Below are positions 31,286-37,835 of a stretch of DNA of 41,174 bases, in pieces (positions within the stretch are counted from its first letter, which is position 1; each line of letters starts with the position of its first letter). The position numbers and the translations under genes were made by a program. The notes beneath the pieces were generated by a model. The model saw only the letters and a program-made list of their open reading frames with translations. It was not told the DNA's origin and made no database searches. The DNA is taken from contig PMJO01000092.1 of the NCBI GenBank assembly GCA_003158455.1, positions 42,826 through 83,999 on the forward strand. The letters run 5' to 3'. The stretch is from Myxococcales bacterium (GTDB lineage: Bacteria > Myxococcota_A > Polyangia > Fen-1088).

Positions 31286-31798
31286 CTACTTCACGATCAG
31301 GCCGCAGGCTATGCGATCACCTGCGTTGCCGGCTGGATCGGTCTTCATGTCGTCAGCTTTGGCGTGAATGACCAGTGCGGTTCCCCCGTTGCTGAAGAGC
31401 GAATGGTCGTCTGTACCCAGATTCACGCCCTTGTTGACAATCGTGGCTTTGGCATTGCCCTTTGCATCTGCTGTGAAATTCAGCATATCGCCGGCGTGCG
31501 CGCCCAGCGGATTCTCCAGGCCGTGCTTCTTCCCCTCAGGATTGAAGTGCGGACCGGCGGACTTGAAGTCGGGCGCCTCACATTTCGCGTTCTGATGAAA
31601 ATGGATGGCGTGCTCACCAGGCGGCAATTTGCCCAGGTTGAGCTTCAGTTCGACACCCGAAGTAAGGGGCTTGATCTTGACGGTTCCAACATCCTTGCCC
31701 GTGGCATCCTTGACCGCAACCGTGATTCCACTTCCCTTGGCCACGCTCCCGGCTGACACAAGAGAAAACAGGAAGAACAACAGAATGGTTTTGCGCAT
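31286..31798 (-). CDS. sodC: Cu/Zn superoxide dismutase, exported
   Basis: 170 residues with a signal peptide ([20 protein letters not shown]). Metal ligands and loop motifs are all recognisable: [11 protein letters not shown] (two Cu His and the disulfide Cys), [12 protein letters not shown] (bridging His), GAHAGDMLN (Zn His/Asp region), [11 protein letters not shown] (Cu His) and [13 protein letters not shown] (second disulfide Cys and Arg). It dismutates superoxide in the periplasm. It is a single gene; the neighbouring haem/sensor operon is on the same strand but 98 bp downstream. Confidence 0.95.
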
Positions 31799-31940: not shown

Positions 31941-33002
31941 TCACGTCTGGCGGGTCGTGCTGTCCGTCGGGGCAGAAGCTTGCAGAAAGCAGTGGGTGCT
32001 GACCCCCAGCCTTCCGTGCATGGCGTAGGCGGTCGCGGTGCAGCCGCCCCGACAACGCTGGGCCTGCTCACAGTCAGCGCACGCACCGGACAATTGTGTG
32101 GGCGTGTAGCGGCGATTGTAGCTGAATCGATTGGGGTCGTTCCACATCGCGACCAGTGATTCTTCGCGCACATTGCCCTCGGTGCAGATATCGGGCAAGG
32201 CCAGACAACCCTTCACCCGGCCGTCACTGGTCACCCCCAGGGCATCCAGTCCGGCGCGGCAGCCGAGCCACGGGCGGGGGAAACCGCCCTGAATCGTGCG
32301 CAATTGCAGGTCATCGCTGGTACCGTATCCGATATTGTCAGTTAGGTGCGGGCGCAGGCCTGGCCGCCGCGCCAAACCCCGGAGCACGCGCAGAAACTCG
32401 GGCATCATGGCTGGCGGTGCGATGAGATGTCGGTTCTCCTCAGCACGGCCCAGGGGCAGGGTCAGCTGCAACTGCCAGCCCAGCACGCCTGCGTCCTCGA
32501 GAATGGGGGCAAGGGATTCCAGTTCCGCGAGGTTGCCCTGGTTCACCTGGCTGGTCACGCCCACCTTGAGTCCAGCCCGGTCGACGAATCGGATGGCGCG
32601 CAGGGCCTGCTCGAAACACCCCGGCACCCGTCGCTGCGCATCGTGGGTGCTAGCGAGTCCGTCGATGCTGATGGTGACTGAATGCAGACCACAATCCCGC
32701 ATCACGGAAGCCACGCTTTCATCGAGACCCTGGCCGCAACTGATCATGTCGACCAACATGTCGCGGGCGCAGCCGGCGCGGACCAGATCGACCCAACCCG
32801 GATAGAGCAGCGGCTCGCCTCCCATCAACGAAATGCGACGGCAGCCCAGATCGGCGAGCGAGCCCACCACGCCCAGCCATTCATCGTGGTCGAGCTCGCG
32901 GGCTCGCGGCGCGCCGGCGTGCGAGCCGCAAGTCTGGCATCGGCACGGGCAGCGCAAGGTCAGTTCCAGCGCGACCACGAACGGTGCGGCCGAGGGCTTC
33001 AT
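31941..33002 (-). CDS. radical SAM/SPASM maturase (second enzyme)
   Basis: 353 residues from ATG 33002, overlapping the first maturase's stop as ATGA. The radical SAM CxxxCxxC motif is CPCRCQTC with Cys18, Cys22 and Cys25. The core continues with RISLMGGEPLLYPGW and SVTISIDGL. The C-terminal SPASM domain carries extra Cys for auxiliary FeS clusters: WLGCRAG, VKGCLALPDIC, and CADCEQAQRCRGGC with a later HCF. SPASM enzymes commonly modify ribosomal peptides or proteins (thioether, C-C or cyclophane links, as in PqqE, AlbA and anSME). Third downstream partner of the twin 303-residue proteins, hence the candidate substrate assignment. Confidence 0.92.
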   Translation of the reverse strand: MKPSAAPFVVALELTLRCPCRCQTCGSHAGAPRARELDHDEWLGVVGSLADLGCRRISLMGGEPLLYPGWVDLVRAGCARDMLVDMISCGQGLDESVASVMRDCGLHSVTISIDGLASTHDAQRRVPGCFEQALRAIRFVDRAGLKVGVTSQVNQGNLAELESLAPILEDAGVLGWQLQLTLPLGRAEENRHLIAPPAMMPEFLRVLRGLARRPGLRPHLTDNIGYGTSDDLQLRTIQGGFPRPWLGCRAGLDALGVTSDGRVKGCLALPDICTEGNVREESLVAMWNDPNRFSYNRRYTPTQLSGACADCEQAQRCRGGCTATAYAMHGRLGVSTHCFLQASAPTDSTTRQT

Positions 33003-34072
33003 CCACAGCCCCCGCGCACGCGGAAAAGACAAAACGGATTTGAATAGATGCTGCCCGTGGTCCAGTAAGCCATGGTGGTGCAGCCCGCGCGGCACAAGGG
33101 TCCCACCCGGCAGCGGCCACAGGGACCGGCAAGTTTGCCGGCATCGAAACGCGTGCTGTAGGCGAAGCGCTCGGCGTCGTTCCAGATCGTGGTAAGCGAT
33201 TCGTCGTGCAGATCACCAGCGTCGAACTCGGGCGGCATGAAGGAGCAGCCTCGCACCCGGCCGTCGTAGGTGATGGCCACGGCGCGAATGCCGGCCTGGC
33301 AGCCATTCCACAGGGACCGGGCGTCCGCGGAGCCGCGCAGGCCCAGTTCGCGTTCGGTGAAGTAGCCGATGGTGTCGCTAACATCGATTCGCGGCGTCCT
33401 TCCCGTGGCGCGCGCGTCGACCAGAAACGCGGTCAAGGTTTCGAGATCCGCGGGCGCAATGACGAACGGTTGCGCCACCTCAAGCACGCGGCCCAAGGGA
33501 ATGACGAGCTGGATTTGCCAGCGTTGCACGCCCAGGCCGGACAGGTAGTCGCGCAGGGCCGGCAGTTCCGCCAGATTCAGCCGATTGACCGCAGTCATGA
33601 CCACGGTCTCGATGCGGGGCAGAGCGCGCTCGACGGCAGCCACGGTCTCGCGCCAAGGGGACGGTCCCGCGCCGGGGCGCAGCCGGATGCGATCGTGGGT
33701 GGCCTGCAGCCCGTCAAGTGAAATGCCGACTGCTGCGACACCGGCGTCCAGAGCGCGGGCCAAGCGTTCTTCATCGAGCAAAGTTCCGTTGGTGATGAGG
33801 GCGGTGCGCAGTCCAACCCCGGTGAAACCGCGACAGAGTCGCTCCCAATCTGGGTGCAACAGCGGCTCGCCTCCCGTGACGTCGACGTGGCGGCAACCGA
33901 GCTGCATCAACTCGTGTGCCACGCTACAAATCCGTTCAGTCGGCAACTCGCGGTGGGAAACTTCGCCGCAGTGGCTTTCACAGTGGATGCAACGCAGGTT
34001 GCACCGACGGGTGATTTCGAAGATGCAAGTGTGCGGCTCGCGCGCCACCCGATCAAGCGGGTGCCGATTCAA
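32999..34072 (-). CDS. radical SAM/SPASM maturase (first enzyme)
   Basis: 357 residues starting at TTG 34072, whose TTGA overlaps the stop of the upstream candidate substrate gene. CxxxCxxC is CNLRCIHC (Cys24, 28, 31). HVDVTGGEPLLHPDW and GISLDGLQATHDR complete the core. The SPASM region has NGCQAG, GCSFMPPEFDAGDLHD, CGRCRVGPLCRAGC and PFCLF. It is clearly paralogous to the second maturase along its full length (similar spacing and SPASM layout). Coupled translation with the substrate gene suggests a dedicated modification enzyme. No separate RRE (peptide-binding) domain is visible. Confidence 0.92.
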   Translation of the reverse strand: MNRHPLDRVAREPHTCIFEITRRCNLRCIHCESHCGEVSHRELPTERICSVAHELMQLGCRHVDVTGGEPLLHPDWERLCRGFTGVGLRTALITNGTLLDEERLARALDAGVAAVGISLDGLQATHDRIRLRPGAGPSPWRETVAAVERALPRIETVVMTAVNRLNLAELPALRDYLSGLGVQRWQIQLVIPLGRVLEVAQPFVIAPADLETLTAFLVDARATGRTPRIDVSDTIGYFTERELGLRGSADARSLWNGCQAGIRAVAITYDGRVRGCSFMPPEFDAGDLHDESLTTIWNDAERFAYSTRFDAGKLAGPCGRCRVGPLCRAGCTTMAYWTTGSIYSNPFCLFRVRGGCG

Positions 34073-34980
34073 ACGAAACGAACCCCGGCGTAGATGATTA
34101 TGGGTTTACAGACCCACGGCGTGTTCGGATCCAAAGACGTCCCGGACGAAGGCGATATTTCGTACATTCCTCCGCAAAGAGTCGACCTGATTAGGCAGCT
34201 AAGTTGGCTCTCAACAAAACTGCAGTCGTCGCCTGCAAATCCCTCGGCCAAGAAGCCCGCCCATGAATCGCCCATTTGCGCCAGGCAAACGAGGATTCCC
34301 TGTTGCGTCTGGTCAGGAATATTGCAGCTATCCATGATGTCCTGGATAGTGACCGCGGCCCCGTCGGACCGACTGGCTGCCACAGCATCTGTAGCGGCCG
34401 CAGCATCTGGAGCGGGAGGCCCGTCAGGGAGCTTGATGTATGGAAGGTCAGGGTTGGCCTCGGGCTTCGCGGCATCAGGGACCTTGGGCGTGATAGGTGC
34501 GTCGGGCAAGCTGGTGACGGTCGAAGCATCAGCGGGGCTCGCATCCTGCGCCTGGGCACGCAGGCCCGAGTCGCCGCAACCGACGCTGGCCGCCCCGCCG
34601 AGAAACAGCAAGAGCCCGAGCGCCGGAGCGGACAGAGCCGCGGCCAGACGGCGAAAGGTTGCCGGCTCTGCCGTCTGGCATGCCAGGGCAGCGCGGATCT
34701 CACGCAGAAGCGCGACGTAGCGTCCACTGTCGAGCAACTCATTGTCGACCAGGGTTCCGGGCGTCGCCGCTTGCCGCATCTTCAGATCGCAGGCCAGGGT
34801 TTCAAGCAGCCCGCGCAACGAGGTCCAGAATATGTCGCACGCGTGGCGAGCGACCAGCGTGGCATGCAGCGCAGCCAGGGTCTCCTCGGTGGTGGCCCAC
34901 GGCTTGACCTTCATTCCGCACATCTCGATCAGAAATGAGCGAATGCGCTGGATGGCGGAGGGAATCATCAGGTTTTCCAT
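34069..34980 (-). CDS. candidate rSAM substrate B: helical N-domain, lipobox-like segment, six-Cys C-domain
   Basis: 303 residues. Residues 1-110 are a helical, presumably cytosolic domain (QRIRSFLIEMCGMKVKPW). Residues 110-135 read like a complete lipoprotein signal (FRRLAAALSAPALG then LLLFLGGAASVGC, Cys135), yet sit mid-protein. Residues 140-208 are an Asp/Ala/Pro linker. The C-terminal domain (209-303) has six Cys (219, 232, 253, 262, 269, 291) and ends NTPWVC followed by IIIYAGVRFV. No family is recognised. The gene precedes and is translationally coupled to the first maturase. The ribosome site GGAGTAGTT is shared with the twin gene. A role as a radical SAM-modified envelope protein is inference. 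Confidence 0.85.
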   Translation of the reverse strand: MENLMIPSAIQRIRSFLIEMCGMKVKPWATTEETLAALHATLVARHACDIFWTSLRGLLETLACDLKMRQAATPGTLVDNELLDSGRYVALLREIRAALACQTAEPATFRRLAAALSAPALGLLLFLGGAASVGCGDSGLRAQAQDASPADASTVTSLPDAPITPKVPDAAKPEANPDLPYIKLPDGPPAPDAAAATDAVAASRSDGAAVTIQDIMDSCNIPDQTQQGILVCLAQMGDSWAGFLAEGFAGDDCSFVESQLSCLIRSTLCGGMYEISPSSGTSLDPNTPWVCKPIIIYAGVRFV

Positions 34981-35016
34981 CTAACTACTCCAGATCATGC
35001 GAAGGAGTGGGGATTT

Positions 35017-35040
35017 ATCAGCAAGCAAATGCCGATTCAA
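35017..35040 (-). pseudogene. vestige of the maturase start after substrate gene A
   Basis: Right after substrate A, the minus strand reads TTGAATCGGCAT then TTGCTTGCTGAT, aligning with the first codons of the real maturase (TTGAATCGGCAC, CCGCTTGAT). The frame (MNRHLLAD versus MNRHPLD) soon ends in unrelated sequence. It marks the breakpoint of the tandem duplication. Confidence 0.6.
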
Positions 35041-35948
35041 ACGAAACGAACCCCGGCGTAGATGATTACGGGGCTGCAGATCCACGGCGTGTTCGGATCG
35101 GACGCAAGTGAGATGACGTACTCTCCCCCGCACATTGTTGACGCCAAGAAACAGCCAAGGTCGCGGCTGACAACACTGCAGTTCACACCTGCCAATTGGG
35201 CGGCTGGAGACTTCCCGTACAAGCCCGCCCATGAATCGCCAAGTTTCGCCAGGCAAGCAAGGACCTGCTGTTGCGTCTGGTCAGGAATATTGCAGCTATC
35301 CATGATGTCCTGGATGGTGACCGCGGCCCCCCCATCAGACTGACTGGCTGCCACAGCATCTGTAGCGGCCGCAGCATCTCTGGCGGGAGGCGCGTCAGGG
35401 AGCTTGATGTATGCGAGGTCAGAGTTGGCCTCGGGCTTCGCGGCATCAGGGACCTTGGGCGTGACGGGTGCGTCAGGCACGTTGGTGACGGTCGAAGGAC
35501 TCGCGTCCTGCGCCTGGGCTCCTCCGTGCAGGCCCGAGTCACCGCAACCGACGCTGGCCGCCCCGCCGAGAAACAGCAAGAGCCCGAGTGCCGGAGCGGA
35601 CAGGGCCGCGGCCAGGCGGCGAAAGGTTGCCGGCTCTGCCGTCTGGCATGCCAGGGCAGCGCGGATCTCATGCAAAAGCGCAGCGTAGCGTCCACTGTCG
35701 AGCAACTCATTGTCGACCAGGGTGCCGGGCGTCGCCGCTTGCCGGGTCTTTAGATCACCGGCCAGGGTTTCGAGCAGCCCGCGCAACGAGGTCCAGAATA
35801 TGTCGCATGCGTGGCGAGCAACCAGCGTGGCATGGAGCGCCGCCAGGGTCTCCTCGGTGGTGGCCCACGGCTTGACCTTCATTCCGCACATCTCGATCAG
35901 AAATGAGCGAATGCGCTGGATTGCGGAGGGAATTATCAGGTTTTCCAT
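35037..35948 (-). CDS. candidate rSAM substrate A (twin of B)
   Basis: 303 residues with the same plan as its downstream twin. Only about five substitutions occur in the first 135 residues (for example Cys64 of B is Gly here). The lipobox-like Cys135 and the linker are kept with small indels. The six C-terminal Cys are at 219, 232, 257, 266, 273 and 291, so their number is conserved while the intervening loop (residues about 243-268) is rewritten. The ending NTPWIC followed by VIIYAGVRFV is nearly invariant. The ATG follows TGGAGGTAGTT. It is the first gene of the four-gene operon and is divergent from the CocE-type hydrolase; the 93-bp gap 35949-36041 must hold promoters for both directions. 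Confidence 0.85.
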   Translation of the reverse strand: MENLIIPSAIQRIRSFLIEMCGMKVKPWATTEETLAALHATLVARHACDIFWTSLRGLLETLAGDLKTRQAATPGTLVDNELLDSGRYAALLHEIRAALACQTAEPATFRRLAAALSAPALGLLLFLGGAASVGCGDSGLHGGAQAQDASPSTVTNVPDAPVTPKVPDAAKPEANSDLAYIKLPDAPPARDAAAATDAVAASQSDGGAAVTIQDIMDSCNIPDQTQQQVLACLAKLGDSWAGLYGKSPAAQLAGVNCSVVSRDLGCFLASTMCGGEYVISLASDPNTPWICSPVIIYAGVRFV

Positions 35949-36041: not shown

Positions 36042-37835
36042 ATGTCACAGGTTGTCAACTGCACAAGGGCCACAAGCGCGGGGTTCCCGGTCGCGCTTTT
36101 CATCCTCCTGGCGGAGTGTGGTCCGCGCCCGATCGCTTCGGATGCCCAGGCCACCGGCAATGACATCGTCGAGAGAGACGTGGACGTGCCCATGCGCGAC
36201 GGGGTGAAACTGCGCGCGGACGTGATGCGGCCAGCTGGCCGCGGGCGGTTCCCCACGCTGGTTTACCGCACCCCGTACGACAAGGAACAGGAACGCCGGG
36301 AGCAAACCACCTTTGCGCGCGCGCTGGAACGCGGCTACGCGGTGGTGGTGCAGGACGTGCGTGGTCGCTACGCCTCCGAGGGTGAATTCCGTCCCTATCA
36401 ACAAGAAGGCCAGGACGGATTCGACACCATCGAGTGGGCCGCGACCCAGAACTGGTCGAGCGGCGCCGTCGGCAGCTTTGGCCTGTCCTATCCCGGGGCG
36501 GTGCAGTGGCTGGCAGCGGTGGAAAATCCCCCTCACCTCAAGGCGATGGTTCCAGCCATGACCTTCGCGTCGCACGAAAACCTGATCTACGCGCACGGGC
36601 CCTTCGACATGTCGTGGATCGAGTGGGCCTGGAACGACATTGCCCCGAACCGGCGCGCCCGAGGTCATCTGGCGGGGCCGTCGAACTATGACGAGGCGGC
36701 TGCCACGTGGGACAATGAGGGCCCGCGCATGCAGAGCGCGCTGCCTCTCGACCGGATGGACGCCCTACGTGACGTCGCCCCGTTCTACTACGAATGGTTG
36801 CAACACCCGCCGGAGGACCCGTGGTGGGCCTGGGCCGATCTGCGCCCCAAGTACGGCAAGACCCAAGCCGCGGTTCTCAATCTGTCGGGTTGGTACGACG
36901 AGGGCTACGGGCCCGAAGGTGCGACGACCGGTTTTCACGGACTGCTGGCCGCTCGGCACGGCCAGGCGGCAGAGGTGGCGCTGCTTCTGGGACCCTGGGT
37001 CCACGGGGTGAAGGAAACCGCAAGCGCGGCGGCCGGTGAACGTCGTTTCGCCGACAACGCGAAGATCGATTACGACGGCCTGGTCCTCGATTGGATGGAC
37101 CACCACCTGCGCGGCGCGGCCCTGGACCGCGGCAGCCCGGTCCGTTACTACGTGATGGGCGCGGACATTTGGCGAGAAGCTCTTGCCTGGCCGCCCGCCG
37201 CAGTCCGCACCAGCTTCTACCTGCACCAGGCCGCGCCCGGGAAAGTCGGGTTGCTCACGCGCAGTTTCCAAAACCGCGGGTCGAGCGCCTTCGTCTCCGA
37301 CCCCGGCCACCCGGTCAGGAACAAGTACGAAGATCTGGGCGCGCACGATTACCGCGAGCTGGCCCTGCGCAAGGACGTGCTTACCTTCGATAGTGGGCCG
37401 CTAGCCGCAGACACCGAGGTCACCGGCCCCATCGACGCGGAAGTCTTCGTCAGTTGCACCTGCCGCGACCTTGACCTGTGGGTGCGGCTCTACGACCTGG
37501 CACCCGATGGCGCGGCCTGGAATCTCATGAGCCCCGGTCCCGACGTGATGCGCGCCAGCTATCGTGACCAGGGAAAGGGCCGCCAGTTGCTGCGGCCGGG
37601 CCGGATCTACGAGATCGACGTGCGTGGGCCCATGACGAGTAATCTCTACAAGCAGGGTCACCAGATCCGCGTGCAAGTCTTCGGTTCGTTCTTTCCCGAC
37701 TTCTCCCGCAACCTGCAAAGTGGAAAGAGCGAACGTACCGTTGCCAGCGTCCACAAAGCCACGATCCGCATCCATCACGATCGACTTCACCCTTCGCATA
37801 TCGTGCTGCCCATTGTGGCTGGAGGTAGCCATTGA
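36042..37835 (+). CDS. CocE/NonD family alpha/beta hydrolase (X-Pro dipeptidyl-peptidase S15 type)
   Basis: 597 residues. The N-terminus has a hydrophobic segment ending ILLAEC, a possible lipobox. The S15 catalytic domain has nucleophile Ser149 in GSFGLSYPG, Asp286 in SGWYDEGY and His321 in LGPWVHG, plus VVVQDVRGRYASEG that is typical of the family. A C-terminal jelly-roll domain (about 400-590) follows, with TEVTGPIDAEVFVSC and YEIDVRGPMTSNLY. CocE-type enzymes hydrolyse esters or peptides; the natural substrate is unknown. A possible role in proteolytic release of the neighbouring candidate substrate is speculative, based only on divergent adjacency. Confidence 0.93.
   Translation: MSQVVNCTRATSAGFPVALFILLAECGPRPIASDAQATGNDIVERDVDVPMRDGVKLRADVMRPAGRGRFPTLVYRTPYDKEQERREQTTFARALERGYAVVVQDVRGRYASEGEFRPYQQEGQDGFDTIEWAATQNWSSGAVGSFGLSYPGAVQWLAAVENPPHLKAMVPAMTFASHENLIYAHGPFDMSWIEWAWNDIAPNRRARGHLAGPSNYDEAAATWDNEGPRMQSALPLDRMDALRDVAPFYYEWLQHPPEDPWWAWADLRPKYGKTQAAVLNLSGWYDEGYGPEGATTGFHGLLAARHGQAAEVALLLGPWVHGVKETASAAAGERRFADNAKIDYDGLVLDWMDHHLRGAALDRGSPVRYYVMGADIWREALAWPPAAVRTSFYLHQAAPGKVGLLTRSFQNRGSSAFVSDPGHPVRNKYEDLGAHDYRELALRKDVLTFDSGPLAADTEVTGPIDAEVFVSCTCRDLDLWVRLYDLAPDGAAWNLMSPGPDVMRASYRDQGKGRQLLRPGRIYEIDVRGPMTSNLYKQGHQIRVQVFGSFFPDFSRNLQSGKSERTVASVHKATIRIHHDRLHPSHIVLPIVAGGSH

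Follow-up and report, generated by a model that had tools for sequence, protein, structure and literature searches.

What do two adjacent radical S-adenosylmethionine (SAM) enzymes modify when their genes overlap each other and the end of a gene for one of two twin proteins? This question is raised by a 41,174-nucleotide stretch of DNA (the window) from a Myxococcales bacterium (GenBank assembly GCA_003158455.1, contig PMJO01000092.1, positions 42,826 to 83,999 of the forward strand). The minus strand of the window carries a four-gene operon that encodes, in order, twin 1 (35037-35948) and twin 2 (34069-34980), each a 303-amino-acid substrate candidate of the same architecture, followed by the radical SAM/SPASM enzymes rSAM-A (32999-34072; 357 amino acids, TTG start) and rSAM-B (31941-33002; 353 amino acids, ATG start). 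The TTG start of rSAM-A overlaps the TGA stop of twin 2 (TTGA), and the ATG start of rSAM-B overlaps the TGA stop of rSAM-A (ATGA). This confirms the gene positions, shared strand and overlaps described in a sequence-only reading of the locus, which had proposed a maturase/substrate system displayed at the envelope. A 384-amino-acid version of rSAM-B with a GTG start (31941-33095) differs only in using an upstream start alternative.

From comparison of related loci, we consider it probable that the operon encodes a radical-SAM-modified lipoprotein system, wherein cytosolic SPASM enzymes would modify a short C-terminal tail of the twins and the lipoprotein pathway would then anchor the product.

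A conserved C-terminal tail

A first search with twin 1 as the query recovered relatives in the same genus, the same family and other families of the class. We then used an alignment restricted to the first 135 residues (the N-domain) to search 379 phylum genomes and 318 class genomes, and a second scan compared an rSAM-A alignment with GTDB species genomes. The number of candidates scored per genome was limited in the alignment searches, and thus all counts are lower bounds. With the N-domain alignment, at least 21 of the 318 class genomes are positive, representing at least 13 of 152 genera. The hosts are uncultured relatives of myxobacteria from soil and sediment, represented by metagenome-assembled genomes labelled Myxococcales or Deltaproteobacteria, several with titles that point to fen and groundwater samples. 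As judged from sequence, this is a recurring system that cannot be assigned to a named family. A literature search found no description of the system and no paper with YKGVSF, one form of its tail.

We collected 40 N-domain proteins from the retrieved Myxococcota loci. Because the search had used the N-domain alone, the C-terminus provides an independent test. The tail Y-x-G-[VA]-x-[FLM] is present in 35 of these 40 proteins and lies within the last 16 residues in 34; in the 35th (L076), YKGVAF is followed by 24 further residues. The background rate was measured on other open reading frames (ORFs) of at least 60 codons in the same loci, and the tail is absent from these (0 of 3,710). The relatives that lack it are two proteins of locus L061 and one of L062, both distant, and those of L077 and L078, which are fragmentary or spurious. 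The L061 and L062 proteins end in acidic runs with a C-terminal His (GDGTH, DDDDH), possibly another tail type, and L062 has two convergent SPASM genes.

Every one of 38 tails has the Tyr and the Gly, nearly all have the Val, and most have Phe at position 6. All 38 carry exactly one Lys or Arg at position 2 or 5, either as Y[KR]GVx (24 tails) or as YxGVR (14 tails). The L073 tail is YRGVAF even though its enzymes sit in the YxGVRF clade, which indicates that the basic residue has moved. This conservation supports the role that the sequence-only reading had given to an aromatic tail. That reading had described an invariant IIYAGVRFV; the segment is indeed shared and kept, but its invariant part is YxGVxF. 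In the window, the YAGVRF hexapeptides of twin 1 (35043-35060, followed by Val and the stop codon) and twin 2 (34075-34092), both on the minus strand, are the proposed modification sites.

Upstream of the tail, the region that follows the lipobox is variable in length and contains between zero and eight Cys residues. A total of 6 to 8 Cys are conserved in the YxGVRF branch. A six-Cys C-terminal domain, as noted earlier for the twins, is present in both of them, but the pattern is kept only in near relatives. In 22 of 24 K-type members, a helix with the pattern LFxxxxPxxVAxxLE is located 15-85 residues ahead of the tail, and the pattern matches 14 of 520 background proteins. Its counterpart in R-type members is also helical and is rich in Cys. 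Within the predicted mature proteins, no element other than the tail is conserved.

Enzyme clades associated with the tail

Both enzymes match the Pfam models Radical_SAM and SPASM above cut-off and carry the CxxxCxxC and SPASM Cys patterns, motifs that are present in 45 of 47 family rows. The SAM-binding [4Fe-4S] motifs are CNLRCIHC in rSAM-A (33980-34003, minus strand) and CPCRCQTC in rSAM-B (32928-32951, minus strand), and the SPASM domain of rSAM-A with its auxiliary-cluster cysteines spans 33029-33301 on the same strand. The best NCBIfam model for both is TIGR04103 (nif11-class peptide maturase 3), which gives 198.5 bits for rSAM-A and 233.8 bits for rSAM-B, below its cut-off of 725. Scores for TIGR03913 (GDL-motif peptide maturase) are 193.7 and 209.5 bits, below its cut-off of 591.75, and TIGR04133 (rSAM_w_lipo) ranks third for rSAM-A at 156 bits, below its cut-off of 425. 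An AlphaFold2 model of rSAM-A (predicted local distance difference test, pLDDT, 85.5; predicted template modeling score, pTM, 0.86) best matches anaerobic sulfatase maturases and the maturases SkfB, PqqE, SuiB (TM-score 0.74) and CteB, which act on ribosomally synthesized and post-translationally modified peptides (RiPPs). By motifs and, for rSAM-A, predicted fold, the enzymes are putative members of the radical SAM/SPASM peptide maturases.

In 26 of the 29 loci with a tail, the substrate gene has one to three SPASM genes beside it, mostly in the order rSAM-A then rSAM-B, in agreement with the maturase/substrate coupling proposed earlier. That proposal would have been undermined by twin relatives that are widespread without radical SAM neighbors. 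It largely held, since the solitary copies number three (L014, L067 and L076) and a complete locus is present elsewhere in each of these genomes (L009, L064 and L019, respectively), so the solitary proteins could be modified in trans. Beyond the substrate and SPASM genes, the loci have no conserved gene in common, be it for a RiPP recognition element (RRE), a protease, a transporter or an MNIO enzyme.

In a likelihood tree of 47 enzymes, rSAM-A and rSAM-B fall in separate, well-supported parts, and each clade includes a subclade tied to YxGVRF tails. Tail type and both SPASM clades are co-inherited. In one locus (L077:355-591), the start of an N-domain continues in frame into the end of a SPASM gene, which looks like a remnant of the operon after a deletion.

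Predicted precursors and their proposed route to the envelope

The twins are 86% identical to each other. Twin 1 begins with a helical N-domain (residues ~9-115), followed by a hydrophobic, lipobox-like segment that ends in ASVGC at Cys135 (codon 35544-35546, minus strand). Beyond this point are a disordered linker, a helical C-domain with six Cys, and the YAGVRF tail. Twin 2 is alike, and its Cys135 codon, also the end of ASVGC, is located at 34576-34578 on the minus strand. Neither twin has a Pfam match, including to Nif11, their NCBIfam matches are meaningless, and nothing convincing was found for the substrates even at an E-value of 10. An AlphaFold2 twin model built from 32 sequences has confident, helical N- and C-domains, whereas the linker and tail have pLDDT values below 50 and are probably accessible. 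A Foldseek comparison of this model with the PDB gave nothing below an E-value of 2 and no matching fold.

Across 32 aligned family rows the lipobox Cys is nearly invariant, and in most members the hydrophobic segment that leads up to it lies in the interior of the protein. A segment of this kind, with so strongly conserved a Cys, is likely best read as a lipoprotein signal, in which case the N-domain would be an unusually large removable leader. Thus, two further elements of the sequence-only reading are retained: the precursor candidates are large, and envelope anchoring is likely.

The ratio of nonsynonymous to synonymous substitution rates (dN/dS) for the twin N-domains is ~0.12 (dS 0.156, dN 0.018), and that for the C-domains is 0.66 (dS 0.364, dN 0.240) with the tail fixed. 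The N-domain is under strong purifying selection, and the C-domain is much freer. These values, together with the recurrence of the tail across families and in a second phylum, argue that the pattern shared by the twins is not due to chance. In the N-domain the twins are identical at 96% of positions, whereas the C-domain of twin 2 shares 82% identity with that of L013 from another species and 68% with that of twin 1. Hence the leader part has been homogenized or the genes have recombined, and the contrast in identities indicates putative gene conversion or domain shuffling. The spacer between the twins (34981-35036, minus strand) begins with ~17 bp that match the first codons of rSAM-A in a DNA alignment, a scar left when a unit reaching into rSAM-A was duplicated in tandem to give the twins. 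The genes flanking the operon appear by eye to encode a Cu/Zn superoxide dismutase-like protein (31286-31798) and a CocE/NonD-type S15 hydrolase-like protein (36042-37835); their adjacency to the system is not conserved.

Several members of the family are stripped down. The L091 protein, from Candidatus Coatesbacteria, has an unrelated N-terminal part, a lipobox, the helix and two copies of YKGVDF, and its locus includes two SPASM genes; within its phylum, a search for relatives of this substrate covered its own genome alone. The L088 protein has a plain N-terminal lipoprotein signal in place of the N-domain, then the helix and YKGVTF, again with two SPASM genes. In L096, the helix precedes the lipobox and the protein ends in ...TAC-YKGVTPEA, such that the predicted mature lipoprotein is C-YKGVTPEA only. 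An L074 protein has the N-domain and a lipobox (...IGC-) followed by CDCSSIYNGVRMV, such that little more than C-CDCSSIYNGVRMV would be left after processing. This 142-amino-acid protein (L074:6641-7066), whose tail comes almost directly after the lipobox (IGCCDCSSIYNGVRMV), adjoins a normal-length copy and might represent a minimal lipopeptide precursor, or else have arisen by deletion.

These members indicate that the shared essentials are the lipobox Cys, the Y-x-G-V tail and the SPASM enzymes. The sequence-only reading had given the role of recognition leader to the N-domain. Most members conserve this domain, but it is missing in L088 and replaced by an unrelated sequence in L091, both with the same two kinds of enzyme, so elements close to the tail probably matter more. 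An obligatory leader role for the N-domain is weakened accordingly.

Taken together, these features suggest the following route. The 303-amino-acid precursors would be made in the cytosol, where rSAM-A and rSAM-B, translationally coupled to them, would act in turn on the Y-x-G-V-x-F tail. Enzymes that use SAM and Fe-S clusters are expected to work in the cytosol, and neither rSAM-A nor rSAM-B has an export signal, which places their predicted action before export. The internal hydrophobic segment would then serve as a type II signal, with Lgt lipidating Cys135 and Lsp removing the 134-residue N-terminal leader. The result would be an envelope protein held by a lipid anchor, in which a flexible linker and a small domain, probably stabilized by disulfides, bear the modified tail.

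Several observations weigh against this interpretation. Loci L058 and L065 have rSAM-A only, and the distant relatives of L061 and L062 lack the tail despite SPASM genes near the latter. A lipobox located internally, behind ~115 cytosolic residues, is unusual. The basic-residue rule reflects only about two independent switches, L096 lacks an aromatic residue at position 6, and most genomes in the family are metagenome-assembled.

Competing explanations and related systems

For the chemistry, our leading though tentative candidate, by analogy, is a carbon-carbon cross-link between a tail aromatic (Tyr1 or Phe6) and the sole Lys or Arg at position 2 or 5. The cross-link in streptide has i,i+4 spacing, and Lys2-Phe6 and Tyr1-Arg5 of YxGVxF tails are spaced in the same way. 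The streptide enzyme SuiB is also among the best structural matches of rSAM-A. SuiB and enzymes of the RRR family are SPASM proteins that make Lys-Trp or Arg-Tyr carbon-carbon links (PMC8326336), but their substrates are short secreted streptococcal peptides with one enzyme each and no lipoprotein. The absence of Phe6 in L096 means that Phe cannot always take part, which argues against an obligatory Phe link.

Next in rank, although somewhat unlikely, is a Tyr-centered backbone rearrangement of the splicease type. For both window enzymes the highest-scoring NCBIfam model is TIGR04103 (199 and 234 bits), to which we presume PlpX belongs although the literature searched neither names the model nor links the two, but these scores are far below its cut-off of 725 bits. 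Tyr is invariant in the tails, and proteins with YG(A/V/I/G)P motifs adjoin sister Myxococcota SPASM enzymes (11 of 107 adjacent versus 10 of 296 others, p = 0.01). PlpX, whose class is named IPR026482 in a review, is a SPASM enzyme from a Nif11-type precursor cluster that excises tyramine at Xaa-Tyr-Gly (PMC11002830), and splicing by PlpXY is leader-independent (PMC10533398). The systems are therefore alike in combining a SPASM enzyme with a Tyr motif. However, the spliceotide motif has Gly adjacent to Tyr, whereas all 38 tails read Y-x-G, with Gly at Tyr+2 rather than Tyr+1. In addition, spliceotide systems use the RRE protein PlpY and leaders of the Nif11 or nitrile-hydratase type, and the YxGVxF loci yielded neither.

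It is improbable that the enzyme pair makes a small molecule or cofactor for which the lipoproteins are carriers or receptors. Models of the AhbD, NirJ, PqqE and mycofactocin type do score on the enzymes, but lower than peptide-maturase models; the loci conserve no further biosynthetic gene, and the minimal precursors would retain little but the tail after processing. We consider it slightly less probable still that the tail is a sorting or assembly signal, such as a strand resembling a beta-signal that an envelope machine would recognize, with the radical SAM enzymes acting elsewhere. Its C-terminal placement and alternating hydrophobic residues do resemble the beta-signals of outer-membrane proteins, but the tail directly follows the lipobox Cys in L096, occurs twice in L091 and stands 24 residues short of the C-terminus in L076. 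Moreover, tail type is inherited together with two SPASM clades, and no envelope machine gene is conserved nearby. Least likely of all is the original suggestion that the C-domain cysteines form a thioether core of the sactipeptide or ranthipeptide type, because, although SPASM enzymes commonly make thioethers and 6 to 8 Cys are conserved in the YxGVRF branch, the C-terminal part has 0 to 8 Cys across the family, none are present in L017 (both copies), L072, L088 and L091, which retain the tail and the kinds of enzyme, and the Cys residues of an exported domain are explained by disulfides.

A modified-lipoprotein system, the interpretation we favor, has possible sisters. The genome of the window carries a third SPASM gene (L201:4314-6371, contig C178), whose product is 35-38% identical to rSAM-A and rSAM-B. 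It adjoins a gene for a 290-amino-acid lipoprotein with about nine Tyr motifs (LYMAPM, VYSAPM, KYSAPM, AYMAPL) in a Gly-rich linker. Proteins with YG(A/V/I/G)P repeats, several of them lipoproteins, are encoded beside SPASM genes in many Myxococcota (L192:4015-4425, L242:5567-6067, L243:803-1213, L211:5248-6216, L197:5690-6595 and others). Some start with a zinc-ribbon-like segment, CPxCxRH...CPFCG, and the YG of the repeats resembles the splicease XYG motif. Part of these YG systems may already be described in a 2022 article by Scott et al. in Chem, said to concern ribosomal beta-amino-acid peptides and proteins. This collection points to a larger set of SPASM-modified lipoproteins, of which the YxGVxF system would be one branch. 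It is quite possible, if short of probable, that Myxococcota and at least one other phylum share a 'radical lipoprotein' strategy, by which enzymes of a SPASM clade would equip lipid-anchored envelope proteins with Tyr-centered chemistry (at YxGVxF, or at the YGxP and YxAP repeats of sister systems). The two-enzyme branch would make a previously unseen modification, which at its most extreme would sit on the nine-residue lipopeptide C-YKGVTPEA.

The six-residue target (YAGVRF or YKGVSF) is small enough for direct enzymology, and the two separated enzyme clades with matched tail types make it possible to examine by mix and match which enzyme modifies what. If the strategy is real, tailoring takes place at a hexapeptide tag of whole envelope proteins, not of short peptides, and radical SAM chemistry joins the RiPP-lipoprotein hybrids so far described for MNIO enzymes.

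Among known systems, TIGR04133 similarly pairs a SPASM enzyme with a lipoprotein, but no partner lipoprotein model matches the twins. The closest concept is that of the DAG-RiPPs (DybA/DybH of the chryseobasin type, NedA); the YxGVxF loci have adjacent enzymes and a conserved C-terminal motif, and their predicted lipobox would be a further parallel. In DAG-RiPP systems, a cytosolic enzyme modifies the conserved C-terminal motif and the lipoprotein pathway then lipidates and anchors the product; the same study describes C-terminally modified proteins of more than 30 kDa, and a search of its text found no mention of radical SAM (PMC12636315). The DAG-RiPP enzymes are MNIOs (DUF692), whereas the only conserved neighbors in the YxGVxF system are SPASM radical SAM genes for two enzymes. 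The DAG-RiPP motifs are built around Cys (CPxCGxG, EGKCG) and their signal lies at the N-terminus, whereas the YxGVxF tail has no Cys and the lipobox is mostly internal, behind a 115-residue domain. The two-enzyme YxGVxF branch would thus represent a new variant of RiPP-lipoprotein hybrids with a sharply defined candidate target motif.

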